40,754 bases of DNA. Source: Candidatus Pacearchaeota archaeon. GTDB taxonomy: Archaea; Nanobdellota; Nanobdellia; UBA10117; JAFCGI01. Shown here piece after piece: positions 16,434-36,898 of this stretch. A model generated the notes under the pieces. That model had not been told where the DNA came from and did no database searches. It saw only the letters and a list, made by a program, of their open reading frames with translations. Numbering within the stretch: position 1 is the first letter of the stretch; every line of letters begins with the position of its first letter. The stretch spans positions 1-40,754 of the forward strand of contig JAFCGI010000011.1 in assembly GCA_017608235.1 (NCBI GenBank), in the 5' to 3' direction. The position numbers and the translations under genes were made by a program.

Positions 16434-17098
16434 AATCTCCTTTACACAAAGTAAGCCCAGGAAAAAATGCTCCAAATAAAATTAATGTAATCATAGAAAT
16501 TCCTAAGAATTCTAGAATTAAATATGAAGAAGATGAATCTACCGGCTTAATAAGATTAGATAGAGTTCTTCCATCTGAATTTAGATTCCCTATAGACTAT
16601 GGCTTAATTCCACAAACTTTAGCAGAAGATAACGATCCTATAGATGTTATTGTTATAACTAATCTAGACCTATTCCAAAACACACTATTAGAAGTTAGAC
16701 CAATAGGAGTAATGGAGCTATATGACCAAGGTAAGAGGGATGATAAAATATTAGCAATCCCTGTTAAAGATCTTGAGATGAAGTCCATAAAGAAGATAAA
16801 ACAACTTGATAAAACTCTTCTTAATAAGATAAAACTCTTCTTTAACCACTATAAGGACTTTGAAAACAAAAAAACTAAAGTTCTAGGTTTTAAGGACAAG
16901 GATAAAGCCTTAAAAATAATTAAAAAAGCTATCTCTAACTATAAAAAATCAAATAAAAGGAATACTAATCATAAAGAGTCAAATAAAAGGAATACTAATC
17001 ATAAAGAGTCAAATAAAAGGAATACTAATCATAAAGAGTCAAATAAAAGGAATACTAATCATAGTCAAATAAAAAGAACACTAATAAGTAAGCTGTAA
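16430..17098 (+). CDS. ppa: Family I inorganic pyrophosphatase with a repetitive C-terminal extension
   Basis: The core (residues 1-170) has IIEIPKNSRIKYE, RVLPSEFRFPIDYGLIP and DNDPIDVIV, the metal- and PPi-binding signature of soluble inorganic pyrophosphatase, which hydrolyses PPi to drive biosynthesis. The usual family length is about 170-180. Here residues 174-213 add four copies of a 10-residue KESNKRNTNH unit, encoded by an in-frame 30-bp tandem repeat, then a short basic tail. The extension is highly basic and looks recently expanded. Four-base overlap with the PIN gene shows co-translation. Confidence 0.9.
   Translation: MKSPLHKVSPGKNAPNKINVIIEIPKNSRIKYEEDESTGLIRLDRVLPSEFRFPIDYGLIPQTLAEDNDPIDVIVITNLDLFQNTLLEVRPIGVMELYDQGKRDDKILAIPVKDLEMKSIKKIKQLDKTLLNKIKLFFNHYKDFENKKTKVLGFKDKDKALKIIKKAISNYKKSNKRNTNHKESNKRNTNHKESNKRNTNHKESNKRNTNHSQIKRTLISKL
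16951..17063 (+). repeat. 30-bp in-frame tandem repeat in the pyrophosphatase C-terminus
   Basis: Copies start at 16951, 16981 and 17011 (30 bp each), with a 23-bp partial copy at 17041. The period is a multiple of three, so unit gain or loss keeps the reading frame. Confidence 0.95.
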
Positions 17099-18322: not shown

Positions 18323-19132
18323 TTAAAGCAGATCAGCAAGTTTTTTGATATCTTTGTTTGCTACATGAGTATAAATCTGTGTTGTTTTAAGATCCTTATG
18401 GCCTAACAATTGCTGAATGTATCTTATGTCTGCGCCAGATTCTAAGAGGTGAGTAGCAAAGCTGTGCCTTAGCGTGTGAGGGGTTACATTTTTCTTGATT
18501 CCTGCCTTTTTTGCGGCAGACTTTATAATTTGTTGAATTGTCCTTTTGTTGTATTTCCCTTCTCTCTGAGAAACAAAAATTGGACCTTCTTCCTTTATCC
18601 CATACATTCTCAATATATCACTCAGTTTCTTGTGGAGAAAGACCACTCTTTCCTTATCCCCCTTTGCAGTTTTTAGATGAATGGTTTCTCTGTCAAAATC
18701 AATATCTTTCCAGCCAAGATTTCGTACTTCATCCAATCGGAGACCTGCATAGTACAGAAACATGATAACCATCTTATGCTTCAGATTGCTTGTAGACTCT
18801 ATCATTTTGATTACTTCTTCTCTACTCAAAACCAAAGGCAATTTCAAGGATTTTCTAGCAAGTGGCAACTTCTCATCAAATTTGGTATTAAGCACGTTCT
18901 CATGAAAGAACTTCATAGCAAAATATGCAGATCTCATTGTTGACTTGCTTTTGTTGGAATATGACAAAAGAAAATCTCTTGGTGTTTTTCCTGAAGCAAG
19001 AAAGTCTTTCACGACAGAAATGTAAGACTTTCTTGTCTGATAAGAATATCTTCTGAGTTTTACTTCCTCAATCAGCTTGCCAATAAGCTTATATCGTTCC
19101 TCTGGTGAATAATTCTTGCCTATATCCGCCAT
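18323..19132 (-). CDS. Xer-like tyrosine recombinase, proposed integrase of the array, 269 aa
   Basis: The catalytic set is complete: Arg in GLRLDEVR, Lys in KGDKERVV, His-x-x-Arg in TPHTLRHSF, His in LLGHKDL, and the nucleophile Tyr in TTQIYTHV. An N-terminal SAM-like domain (about residues 10-95) contains [19 protein letters not shown]. Only about 20 residues separate KGDKERVV from [10 protein letters not shown], so the extra helix insertion of bacterial IntI is absent. The ATG at 19132 is chosen because the TATA box at 19155-19163 is 27 bases upstream; a longer frame to 19231 would run over that promoter and the inverted repeat. Position and divergent orientation match an integron integrase; chromosomal XerA is the alternative. 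Confidence 0.85.
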
Positions 19133-19154: not shown

Positions 19155-19163
19155 TATATAAAA
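19155..19163 (-). promoter_or_regulatory. TATA box of the recombinase gene
   Basis: Minus-strand TTTTATATA preceded by a purine-rich BRE-like GCGAGA. The distance of 27 bases to the ATG at 19132 decides the start and implies a leaderless transcript. Confidence 0.65.
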
Positions 19164-19186
19164 TCTCGCTTTTTATCCTGATTAGT

Positions 19187-19227
19187 ACTATTAAGCGAAT
19201 ATTTATCTCGCTTAATAGTTGTTAATT
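19187..19227 (+). other. Candidate attI site
   Basis: A perfect 12-bp inverted repeat, ACTATTAAGCGA (19187-19198) and TCGCTTAATAGT (19208-19219), with 9 bp between arms, is followed at 19221 by GTTAATT. The bases after it (GTTAATTGCAATTTT) match the head of the other cassettes (GTTA, then TCAATT). This is where attI lies in integrons, between the integrase start and the first cassette. The repeat could instead be an operator for the recombinase gene. Confidence 0.6.
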
Positions 19228-19231
19228 GCAA

Positions 19232-19730
19232 TTTTATTTTTCCGCCTACTTTAGAAACTTATTTAAAAACAGAGATTTTTTTAACATTATGCAGGAAGAA
19301 TTTATGCTATATGAAACAAAATTTTGGAAAGTTGTTTTAAGTGATGAACAATCCTATTTAGGTAGATGTGTAATTCTTCTCAAAAGAAATTGTGGTGAAT
19401 TATCAAATTTAACATCTGAAGAGTGGTTGGATTTTCATGAAAACATTGTGAAAAAATTGGAATCTGTTTTTAAGAAAGTATTTGATGCCACAATGTTTAA
19501 CTGGACTTGTTTGATGAATAATGCGTACCAAGCTGAAAATCCAAAACCTTATGTTCATTTCCATTTTAGACCAAGATATAATCATGATGTTAAATTTGCA
19601 GGAGAGGAATTCCATGATCCTGATTTTGGTCATCACTATAATCGTGAAAGAAAAAATTTTGTTTCTAAAGAATTACTTAAAAAAATCTCTGATGAAGTAA
19701 AGAAATACTTGTAACGGCGGAAAAATAAAA
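19232..19730. repeat. Payload-bracketing inverted repeat, cassette 1 (15 bp, perfect)
   Basis: Left arm TTTTATTTTTCCGCC (19232-19246) and right arm GGCGGAAAAATAAAA (19716-19730) are exact reverse complements. They enclose only the HIT gene and its promoter; the right arm begins one base after the stop codon. Confidence 0.9.
19289..19714 (+). CDS. HIT-superfamily hydrolase-like protein (cassette 1), 141 aa
   Basis: YVHFHFRPRY aligns with the HIT motif ending in PRY; the middle (nucleophilic) and last His are present while the first is Tyr. GRCVILLKRNCGELSNLTSEEW matches the beta strand and helix before the motif in HIT proteins, which cleave dinucleotide polyphosphates or adenylylated substrates. 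A TATA-like TTATTTAAAAA centred near 19263 lies 26 bases before this ATG, so the transcript is leaderless. An in-frame ATG at 19304 is an alternative. First cassette, adjacent to the candidate attI. Confidence 0.75.
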   Translation: MQEEFMLYETKFWKVVLSDEQSYLGRCVILLKRNCGELSNLTSEEWLDFHENIVKKLESVFKKVFDATMFNWTCLMNNAYQAENPKPYVHFHFRPRYNHDVKFAGEEFHDPDFGHHYNRERKNFVSKELLKKISDEVKKYL

Positions 19731-19782
19731 CTTCTTCGGCTTCGCCTCGACCACGCTGCGCTCTCGCCTATCGACTCGGGGC

Positions 19783-19901
19783 AATTAACAGGAATTTAAC
19801 GAGAAATGGCTCAGCTCGCCATTTCTCCAAATTTGATTTTCCAGCTCTGTTCACTTCGTTCACGAGGGAAAATCAAACTTCGTTAAATTCCGATGTTATA
19901 T
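19783..19901 (+). repeat. attC-like site A (end of cassette 1)
   Basis: AATTAAC opens and GTTATAT closes the site. Inner arms GGAATTTAACGA and TCGTTAAATTCC are a perfect 12-bp match, with two extra bases (GA) on the 3' side before TGTTA, the asymmetry expected of attC. Inside are two hairpins: GAGAAATGGC/GCCATTTCTC and TTTGATTTTCC/GGGAAAATCAAA. The GC-rich block just upstream (19735-19782, with CCACGCTGCGCTCTCGCC) recurs before sites C and F. Confidence 0.85.
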
Positions 19902-19944
19902 TCAATTTTTGGATTACTTAATTTAGAAAGAGAGAGGGGCGTCA

Positions 19945-20003
19945 GTGCTTACGCACATATAGTCTTTTTCTGCGGAAAAAGAAATTTTATTAGGGGGCGT
20001 CTT
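19945..20003 (+). repeat. Cassette-head two-hairpin module, copy in cassette 2
   Basis: Order: hairpin GTGC-TTAC-GCAC, ATATAG, hairpin TCTTTTTCTGCGGAAAAAGA, then ATTTTATTAG and the GGGGCGTCTT arm. Closely similar copies head cassettes 5 (27744-27799) and 7 (33381-33440). Confidence 0.8.
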
Positions 20004-25313: not shown

Positions 25314-25403
25314 ATATAACAAGGATTAACCGACTACGAAGTCTTGCAGACTTCTCCGTCCAAATCGTGCTACGCACGACTTCGGTTAATCCTGATGTTA
25401 TGC
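25314..25403 (+). repeat. attC-like site B (end of cassette 2)
   Basis: ATATAAC opens, GTTATGC closes. Inner arms AGGATTAACCGA and TCGGTTAATCCT match perfectly over 12 bp, with two extra bases on the 3' side. Hairpins GAAGTC-TTGCA-GACTTC and TCGTGC-TAC-GCACGA lie inside. The upstream TTTTGCCTTCGGCATCGTTGCACTAAA-like block (25259 on) recurs before site E. Confidence 0.85.
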
Positions 25404-26783: not shown

Positions 26784-26877
26784 GACTAACAGCGATTAAG
26801 AGGTTACGCTCGGTTGCACCTCGCTCCGTCCAAATTTCGCCTATCGGCGAAACTTCGGTTAATGCGATATGTTAGTT
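26784..26877 (+). repeat. attC-like site C (end of cassette 3)
   Basis: GACTAAC opens and GTTAGTT closes. Inner arms are imperfect (GCGATTAAGAGG against CGGTTAATGCG). The inner hairpin TTTCGCC-TAT-CGGCGAAA and the TTGCA word are conserved. The left arm would pair perfectly with the right arm of site D, hinting at exchange between sites. Confidence 0.75.
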
Positions 26878-27536: not shown

Positions 27537-27627
27537 GTATAACAGCGATTAAGAGGTAAATTTTCTTGCAGAAAATTTCCCAAAATTTTGCCTACGGCAA
27601 AACTTCTCTTAATCGCATACGTTAAAT
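27537..27627 (+). repeat. attC-like site D (end of cassette 4)
   Basis: GTATAAC opens and GTTAAAT closes, an exact GTTRRRY match. Inner arms GCGATTAAGAG and CTCTTAATCGC are perfect over 11 bp with extra bases on the 3' side. Hairpins AAATTTTC-TTGCA-GAAAATTT and TTTTGCC-TAC-GGCAAAA are inside. Confidence 0.85.
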
Positions 27628-29370: not shown

Positions 29371-29460
29371 AGCTAACAGCGATTAAGCGGTTACGAAGTC
29401 TTGCAGACTTCTCCATCCAAATTCGCCTACGGCGAACTTCGGTTAATCCTGATGTTAAAC
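29371..29460 (+). repeat. attC-like site E (end of cassette 5)
   Basis: AGCTAAC opens and GTTAAAC closes (exact GTTRRRY). Hairpins GAAGTC-TTGCA-GACTTC and TTCGCC-TAC-GGCGAA are inside. Inner arms are imperfect (GATTAAGCGG against CGGTTAATCC). Its right half is almost the same as that of site B, while its left end resembles C and D. Confidence 0.8.
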
Positions 29461-33264: not shown

Positions 33265-33356
33265 AATTAACAGGGCTTAAACGGAAAATGCCTCAGCTCG
33301 GCACGCTCCCAAATGCTCACTATGTTCGCAACTTCGTATACTAGCATATGTTCAAC
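33265..33356 (+). repeat. attC-like site F (end of cassette 6), degenerate
   Basis: AATTAAC opens and GTTCAAC closes. Left arm CAGGGCTTAAACGG and right arm ACTTCGTATACTAGCATAT pair poorly. Position, polarity and the shared upstream block support it, but it may be inactive. Confidence 0.6.
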
Positions 33357-36125: not shown

Positions 36126-36216
36126 GTATAACACCGCTTAAAAGGTAAAATTTCTTGCAGGAATTTTCCCAAAATTTCGGCTACGCCGAAACTTCTCTTA
36201 ATCGTATATGTTATGC
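36126..36216 (+). repeat. attC-like site G (last site, end of cassette 7)
   Basis: GTATAAC opens and GTTATGC closes. Hairpins AAATTTC-TTGCA-GGAATTT and TTTCGGC-TAC-GCCGAAA are inside. The inner arms are imperfect. Only about 90 bases separate it from the Rpo7 start codon, so the array ends at a core transcription and translation operon. Confidence 0.75.
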
Positions 36217-36307
36217 CAATACGACCTCAATTTAGCTGTTGCTAACTTTACCGCTTACTGATAAGTAAACTTTATAAAGGAAAGATTTGTTCTCTGCACT
36301 GATTAAT

Positions 36308-36898
36308 ATGTATTATAAGAGCCAAGTAGAAGGAGTTGCTCGAATATCACCAAGATTATTTGGAGCAAGCTTAAAAAAATCAGTATTAGCACAGCTAAAA
36401 CAAGATTTTGAAGGTAATATAGATAAAGAACTAGGCAGAGTAATATCAATATTAAATATAAATCAAATAGGTGAAGGAGTAATAATTCCCGGAGATGGAG
36501 CAGCTTATTATAAAACAAATTTCACAGTATTACATTATATTCCAGAAGTGCATGAAGTTGTTGAAGGAGATATAAAAGATATAGCAGGTTTTGGAGCATT
36601 CATAGATTTTGGTCCTTTTGAAGGATTAGTACATGTTTCTCAAACCATGGATGACTTTGTTTCATTTAGCAAGCAAGGTGCACTCACAGGAAAAGAATCT
36701 AAACACACTTTAAAAATAGGAGATAAAGTAATAGCAAGAATTGTAGCAGTAAGCTTTAGAGACATCCAAAATCCAAAAATTGGCTTAACAATGAGACAAC
36801 CATATCTTGGAAAGCCAGAATGGATTTTAGAACAAACTGCACAAGCAAAAAAACTAGCAAAAAAACAAGCTAAGAAGGAAGCAGGAACTAAGAAATAA
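36308..36898 (+). CDS. rpo7: DNA-directed RNA polymerase subunit Rpo7 (RpoE'), 196 aa
   Basis: The N-terminal RNP-like tip (MYYKSQVEGVARISPRLFG) and the S1/OB domain (VVEGDIKDIAGFGAFIDFGPFEGLVHVSQ) are diagnostic. With Rpo4, this subunit forms the polymerase stalk that binds emerging RNA. A basic Lys/Ala-rich tail of about 18 residues is added. TATA ACTTTATAAAG (36267-36277) precedes it; the ATG at 36308 is preferred over a TTG at 36287. It heads the operon with Spt4, S24e and S27ae. Confidence 0.95.
   Translation: MYYKSQVEGVARISPRLFGASLKKSVLAQLKQDFEGNIDKELGRVISILNINQIGEGVIIPGDGAAYYKTNFTVLHYIPEVHEVVEGDIKDIAGFGAFIDFGPFEGLVHVSQTMDDFVSFSKQGALTGKESKHTLKIGDKVIARIVAVSFRDIQNPKIGLTMRQPYLGKPEWILEQTAQAKKLAKKQAKKEAGTKK

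Follow-up and report, generated by a model that had tools for sequence, protein, structure and literature searches.

A paired inverted repeat with a GTTA core as the probable attI site of a chromosomal integron beside a Xer-like recombinase in a DPANN-type archaeon

The window, meaning the whole stretch of 40,754 nucleotides analysed here, carries on its reverse strand a gene for a XerA-like tyrosine recombinase of 269 aa without the IntI-specific insertion (18323-19132; Pfam Phage_integrase, 1.9e-43). To the left of this gene lie an inorganic pyrophosphatase and a transposase, and a unit of ~30 bp (ATAAAGAGTCAAATAAAAGGAATACTAATC) is found in tandem copies where the pyrophosphatase gene ends (16955-17075). 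On the other side of the recombinase gene, its TATA-like box TATATAAAA (19155-19163, reverse strand) is followed by a direct-repeat-like conserved motif, CTCGCTTTTTATCC (19165-19178, forward strand), and then by a perfect 12-bp inverted repeat with its left arm at 19187-19198 (ACTATTAAGCGA) and its right arm at 19208-19219 (TCGCTTAATAGT), both on the forward strand. A 9-nt spacer, ATATTTATC (19199-19207), separates the arms, and the right arm is followed by TGTTAATTGCAATTTT, with GTTA at 19221-19224 of the forward strand. The initial annotation, which proposed this element as a candidate attI, had described the repeat, spacer and core exactly and had correctly placed the repeat between the recombinase promoter and the first cassette, whose gene (19289-19714) begins just beyond it.

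To the right of the repeat extends an array with seven attC-like sites in a single orientation, all on the forward strand (19786-19898, 25317-25400, 26787-26874, 27540-27624, 29374-29457, 33268-33353, and 36129-36213). The second marks the end of a restriction-modification cassette, while the sixth is degenerate, was recognised by eye from its TAACAGGGCTTAA motif and was missed by the covariance model. The first cassette (19222-19789, forward strand) encodes a 141-aa HIT-like protein, named by eye and with no Pfam match, and the array also holds a putative restriction-modification cassette with two DNA methylases, an MFS transporter, a PH-domain protein, a nucleotidyltransferase with a small protein as its neighbour, and others. 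The last attC is followed by archaeal rpo7/rpoE' (36287-36898), and since the end of the array adjoins this Rpb7-type RNA polymerase subunit gene, the array can be placed in an archaeal chromosome. Between 20002 and 33000, cassette genes occur on both strands, including a restriction-modification-like cassette of five genes and 5.4 kb, and some have TATA-like boxes of their own (seen by eye), whereas typical bacterial cassettes are promoterless.

Six of the window's attC sites have bottom strands that, folded as single-stranded DNA, give branched hairpins with z-scores of -2.1 to -7.8. Across 41 matches of the covariance model, 94.1% of cells in the attC arms are paired compared with 75.9% after shuffling, in an alignment made to fit the structure, with the sites that built the model and a few weak attI matches among its members; the arms show 102 double changes and hardly any G-U pairs. 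The model, whose E-values are rough, has attC matches in 109 of 378 genomes of the class, and was used in place of a simple arm-scoring scan that gave only about twice the shuffle count at its threshold. For 34 recombinases, 54 attC sites are listed at distances of up to 20 kb, and every one of them is on the attI side with the expected orientation, an outcome with a chance of ~3e-21 under random side and strand when each recombinase is counted once. It had also been noted that the sequence behind the repeat matches the head sequence downstream of attC, and the head motif GTTANNYNCAATT is indeed found again after the attC-like sites. In cassette 1, the head GTTAATTGC and the tail GCAATTAAC form 9 contiguous pairs, and because of this pairing GTTAATTGC is taken to belong to the cassette. 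Own head-tail pairings exceed other pairings (permutation p < 5e-5), the complementarity being clear on average and in some cassettes, not in each one. Extra head/tail inverted repeats past the core were seen in cassettes 1-7 (e.g., TTTTATTTTTCCGCC / GGCGGAAAAATAAAA), with 19231-19245 paired to the stretch after 19714 and 19930-19945 to about 25190 as examples; in a free circle such repeats would lengthen the attC stem and might favour insertion over excision.

By rarity alone the inverted repeat is only mildly unusual, since the window has two perfect 12-bp inverted repeats (spacers of 3-20 nt) where dinucleotide shuffles give 0.27, and the argument from rarity was dropped; it is non-random through its place and its conservation. 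The right arm is L-box-like and resembles the attC left half-site TAACA..GATTAAG, and together with TTGTTA it matches that half-site in its bases as well as its spacing (TAAC-4 nt-ATTAAG). Since both match in these two respects, one protein could bind the attI right arm and attC. The motif CTCGCTTTTTATCC has TCGCTT in common with the right arm and is a possible accessory binding site. Folding of the attI site gives about -10 kcal/mol on either strand, and attI may also work as a hairpin.

When one genome per prokaryotic species was scanned, 47 relatives emerged, all labelled as archaeal, from DPANN lineages, Thermoplasmatales/DHVE2, Thermococci, Archaeoglobales, and Argoarchaeum; apart from a plasmid control, the loci come from draft assemblies, mostly MAGs. 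No relatives of the recombinase were found in viral contigs, and 40 viral-contig matches to a 15-base core, with no recombinase nearby, were taken as chance. Upstream of the full-length relatives a recurring CTATTAAGCGA-N9-TCGCTTAATAGTTG, then TT, is followed by differing cassettes. Where recombinases are 75-88% identical, conservation covers the promoter, the repeat and GTT and then ends, and the first cassettes differ. Identity to the window in 12 close relatives is 81% in the left arm, 92% in the spacer, 98% in the right arm and 100% in GTT, and past GTT it is 47% over the next three bases, 75% over the head-motif bases and 34%, then 28%, in the cassette. A search for the repeat beside related recombinases with different first cassettes had been proposed as a check, and this is the arrangement found in the relatives, the repeat being constant whatever the first cassette. 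The genome of the window also carries the recombinase gene a second time, in frameshifted form (contig C32 of G000, 53833-54644; L003), beside which the repeat is decaying, conservation breaks off at the same place and the first cassette is different. This cassette was named by eye as a methyltransferase. In the table of 47 relatives, about nine contigs that carry a near-complete gene stop at most ~350 nt away on the side of attI, and no contig stops that early on the opposite side. Such one-sided ends are expected if the first cassette differs between cells, though attC repetition could also break the assembly.

The same boundary emerges when one cassette is followed between loci. A cassette common to L035, where it lies after attI, and L180, where it lies after attC, is 94% identical over 400 nt with the match starting from GTT, and L045 and L212 likewise share a cassette, at attI in one and at attC in the other (83% over 224 nt, homology from GTT). 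In L079 and L229 one cassette (96% identical across 407 nt) follows attI sites of two kinds, the repeats of which are unrelated in sequence. Because shared-cassette homology starts at GTT in these three pairs, insertion appears to be site-specific at this boundary, and because L079 and L229 share one cassette, cassettes appear to be exchanged between platforms whose attI types differ. Junctions had been proposed as a further check, and the presence of one cassette at attI in one genome and at attC in another, with the break at GTT, supports the candidate attI together with the retention of the repeat beside related recombinases. The crossover probably falls between 19221 and 19222 (G^TT), just beyond the right arm. 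Here the suggested likeness to paired Xer-type binding sites calls for correction. A Xer site of the dif kind, exchanging strands within the 9-bp spacer, would suit arms of 11-12 bp, a XerA-like enzyme and a spacer so well conserved in close relatives, but the cassette junctions lie at G^TT outside the repeat, the spacers of array-type relatives range from 3 to 15 nt, which is incompatible with a fixed crossover region, and the array-type enzymes stand apart from chromosomal XerA; we consider such a site highly improbable.

Among array-type loci in general (relatives of 38-88% identity), 32 of ~60 have a paired repeat beside GTT with a score of 9 or more, about half of the loci scoring below 9 in this automatic test; none of ten chromosomal XerA loci reached that score and shuffles average ~1. 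Arm sequences vary widely across loci (ACTATTAAGCGA, ATATTTCCCTTA, AGATTATCAATA, TATACTGTTGA, AGATTATGCGC), and in distant relatives the repeat often stays in position with its sequence changed and its arms still paired. The attC arms keep the TTAATCGC type even at loci with different attI arms (e.g., L229). In bacterial integrons attI is enzyme-specific and attC is shared, and by analogy the varied attI arms and constant attC arms seem to match this rule. Comparison of the sequences brings out the site with its boundary, the polar array and the paired divergence of the arms, and the same kind of putative attI is present beside the window enzyme's family in many archaea.

The repeat lies ~25 bp upstream of the recombinase's TATA-like box, which is a regulator's place. 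It could accordingly be an operator at which either a repressor or the recombinase binds and so regulates the recombinase gene, with the position at the array boundary being incidental, although autoregulation by the recombinase itself is compatible with attI function. Several attI-like sites have no recombinase within the flanks searched, of up to ~1.5 kb per side (L122, L126, L127, L130, L131, L132, L134, L135, L147, L149, and L150), and some genomes have two sites. From sites with the gene to these orphan sites, a group that also includes three sites by recombinase remnants or the decayed copy, identity changes from 67 to 40% in the TATA zone, from 90 to 69% in the motif CTCGCTTTTTATCC and from 98 to 92% in the right arm, the conservation being partly ascertainment, as the sites were retrieved by similarity to the window region. 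A pure operator is disfavoured because the orphan sites, found by similarity as they were, keep the right arm where the TATA-like box has decayed. The repeat and core thus persist at sites that have lost both recombinase gene and TATA-like box, the conservation extends to the exact GTT junction and the repeat is absent at chromosomal XerA genes, all of which leaves the operator a poor candidate beside an attI site.

The recombinase itself has the R-K-HxxR-H-Y catalytic residues (PF00589; motifs aligned with IntI1). It narrowly misses the archaeal XerA model NF040815 (213.9 bits, cutoff 220) and does not pass the integron-integrase model TIGR02249 (193 bits, cutoff 265). Its nearest solved structures by sequence are XerA (5HXY, 4A8E), and the phmmer match to VchIntIA (2A3V) is interrupted across the IntI-specific region. 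An alignment of 76 proteins comprised the array-type family including the window protein, ten chromosomal XerA proteins and IntI1; a counterpart to IntI1 residues 198-206 and 214-245 is absent in more than 90% of the other 75, including the window protein. The IntI-specific insertion of ~41 residues is thus missing from the window enzyme and from all aligned array-type relatives, which are too short to hold an insertion of that size, save by N-terminal extension. In the tree the ten chromosomal XerA proteins form a 99/99 clade with the array-type recombinases outside it, a single clade of the latter not being established; IntI1 is a long branch and placement relative to IntI is not informative.

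An enzyme of this kind raises the question of whether the array is a non-mobile relic of a lost canonical IntI that acted in trans, with the adjacent Xer-like enzyme unrelated to it. Canonical archaeal IntIs do exist (PMC9668308), and decay occurs, as the degenerate recombinase copy and the orphan attI sites illustrate. Against this, no recombinase in the window's genome reaches the TIGR02249 cutoff, the Xer-like gene is intact, members of its family consistently head arrays with fixed polarity, and the repeat diverges together with them, so that a relic seems quite unlikely.

We therefore favour, with a probability of roughly 0.92 on the sequence evidence, the reading in which the repeat and GTTA serve a chromosomal integron of a DPANN-type archaeon as its attI, with the adjacent Xer-like recombinase acting on it. 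We infer binding by the window enzyme, strand exchange at G^TT and the use of attC as a folded single strand. The Xer-like recombinase would bind the adjacent attI, with the right arm as the L-box beside the core, and G^TT of attI would be joined to the GTT of the incoming cassette's attC, whereby the newest cassette would come to adjoin the repeat. The paired arms would be the enzyme-specific part, changing together as the enzyme diverges, and attC would be recognised through a folded shape common to different platforms. Additional binding sites would be provided by the left arm and perhaps by the TCGCTTTTTA motif (19165); attI1 carries extra IntI sites. Counting against this proposal are the lower conservation of the left arm (81%) compared with the right in close relatives, the repeat scores below 9 at about half of the array-type loci, and the lack in the window recombinase of a domain considered necessary for folded-attC recombination (PMC7790495).

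Like bacterial integrons (IntI1/attI1, VchIntIA), the window has a recombinase divergent from a polar array with attI at the junction, a G^TT boundary, imperfect-palindrome attC sites and within-cassette head-tail complementarity. It differs in that IntI1 has the 41-residue insertion and the window enzyme does not, in that its cassette genes run in both directions and in the near-perfect repeat flanking its core. With archaeal XerA (4A8E, 5HXY) and dif, the window enzyme shares size and catalytic motifs, and these are its closest structures by sequence; chromosomal XerA, in contrast, is a separate clade without the repeat and without an array. Archaeal integrons have been surveyed before, with 539 attC sites against six IntIs (Ghaly et al., 2022; PMC9668308). 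That survey describes attC arrays in archaea including DPANN phyla, with a putative attI beside the integrase and a canonical insertion point, as here. Its IntIs have the IntI-specific domain, however, most of its arrays are classed as integrase-less, whereas here a XerA-like enzyme without that domain is adjacent, and the window attI differs in having a paired inverted repeat, although window-type attI sites may overlap the putative ones of that work (PMC9668308). Among the freely accessible journal papers searched, we found no earlier report of integrons linked to Woesearchaeota, to XerA or to the absence of the IntI domain.

The system is best called an integron variant, whose novelty is the absence of the IntI domain in an array-heading enzyme. 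This domain is held to be distinctive and is tied to single-strand recombination (PMC9024848, PMC7790495), and IntI1 is dead on its deletion, hence causality is untestable there (PMC9024848, PMC7790495, PMC8138268). A natural family that heads attC arrays without the domain makes its role testable. We consider it likely that archaea widely harbour integrons whose Xer-like integrase, though it has no I2 insertion, recombines folded attC and acts on a palindromic attI that coevolves with it. If this is true, integrons can function without the I2 insertion, and an integrase is in fact present for many archaeal arrays listed as integrase-less. A possible reason why archaeal arrays are mostly reported as integrase-less is that domain-reliant searches miss an integrase lacking the domain (PMC9668308). 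The attI consensus and the attC model permit such platforms to be found. DHVE2/Thermoplasmatales relatives (L050, 1166-1240; L046, 9-103) apparently have another attC type, with GCGGGTATCTGA arms and GTTAGGC-like heads. At L044 (239-294) there is a fully symmetric attI, TAACAACTATTAAGCGA-N9-TCGCTTAATAGTTGTTA, with a core on either side, which the attC model matches on both strands.
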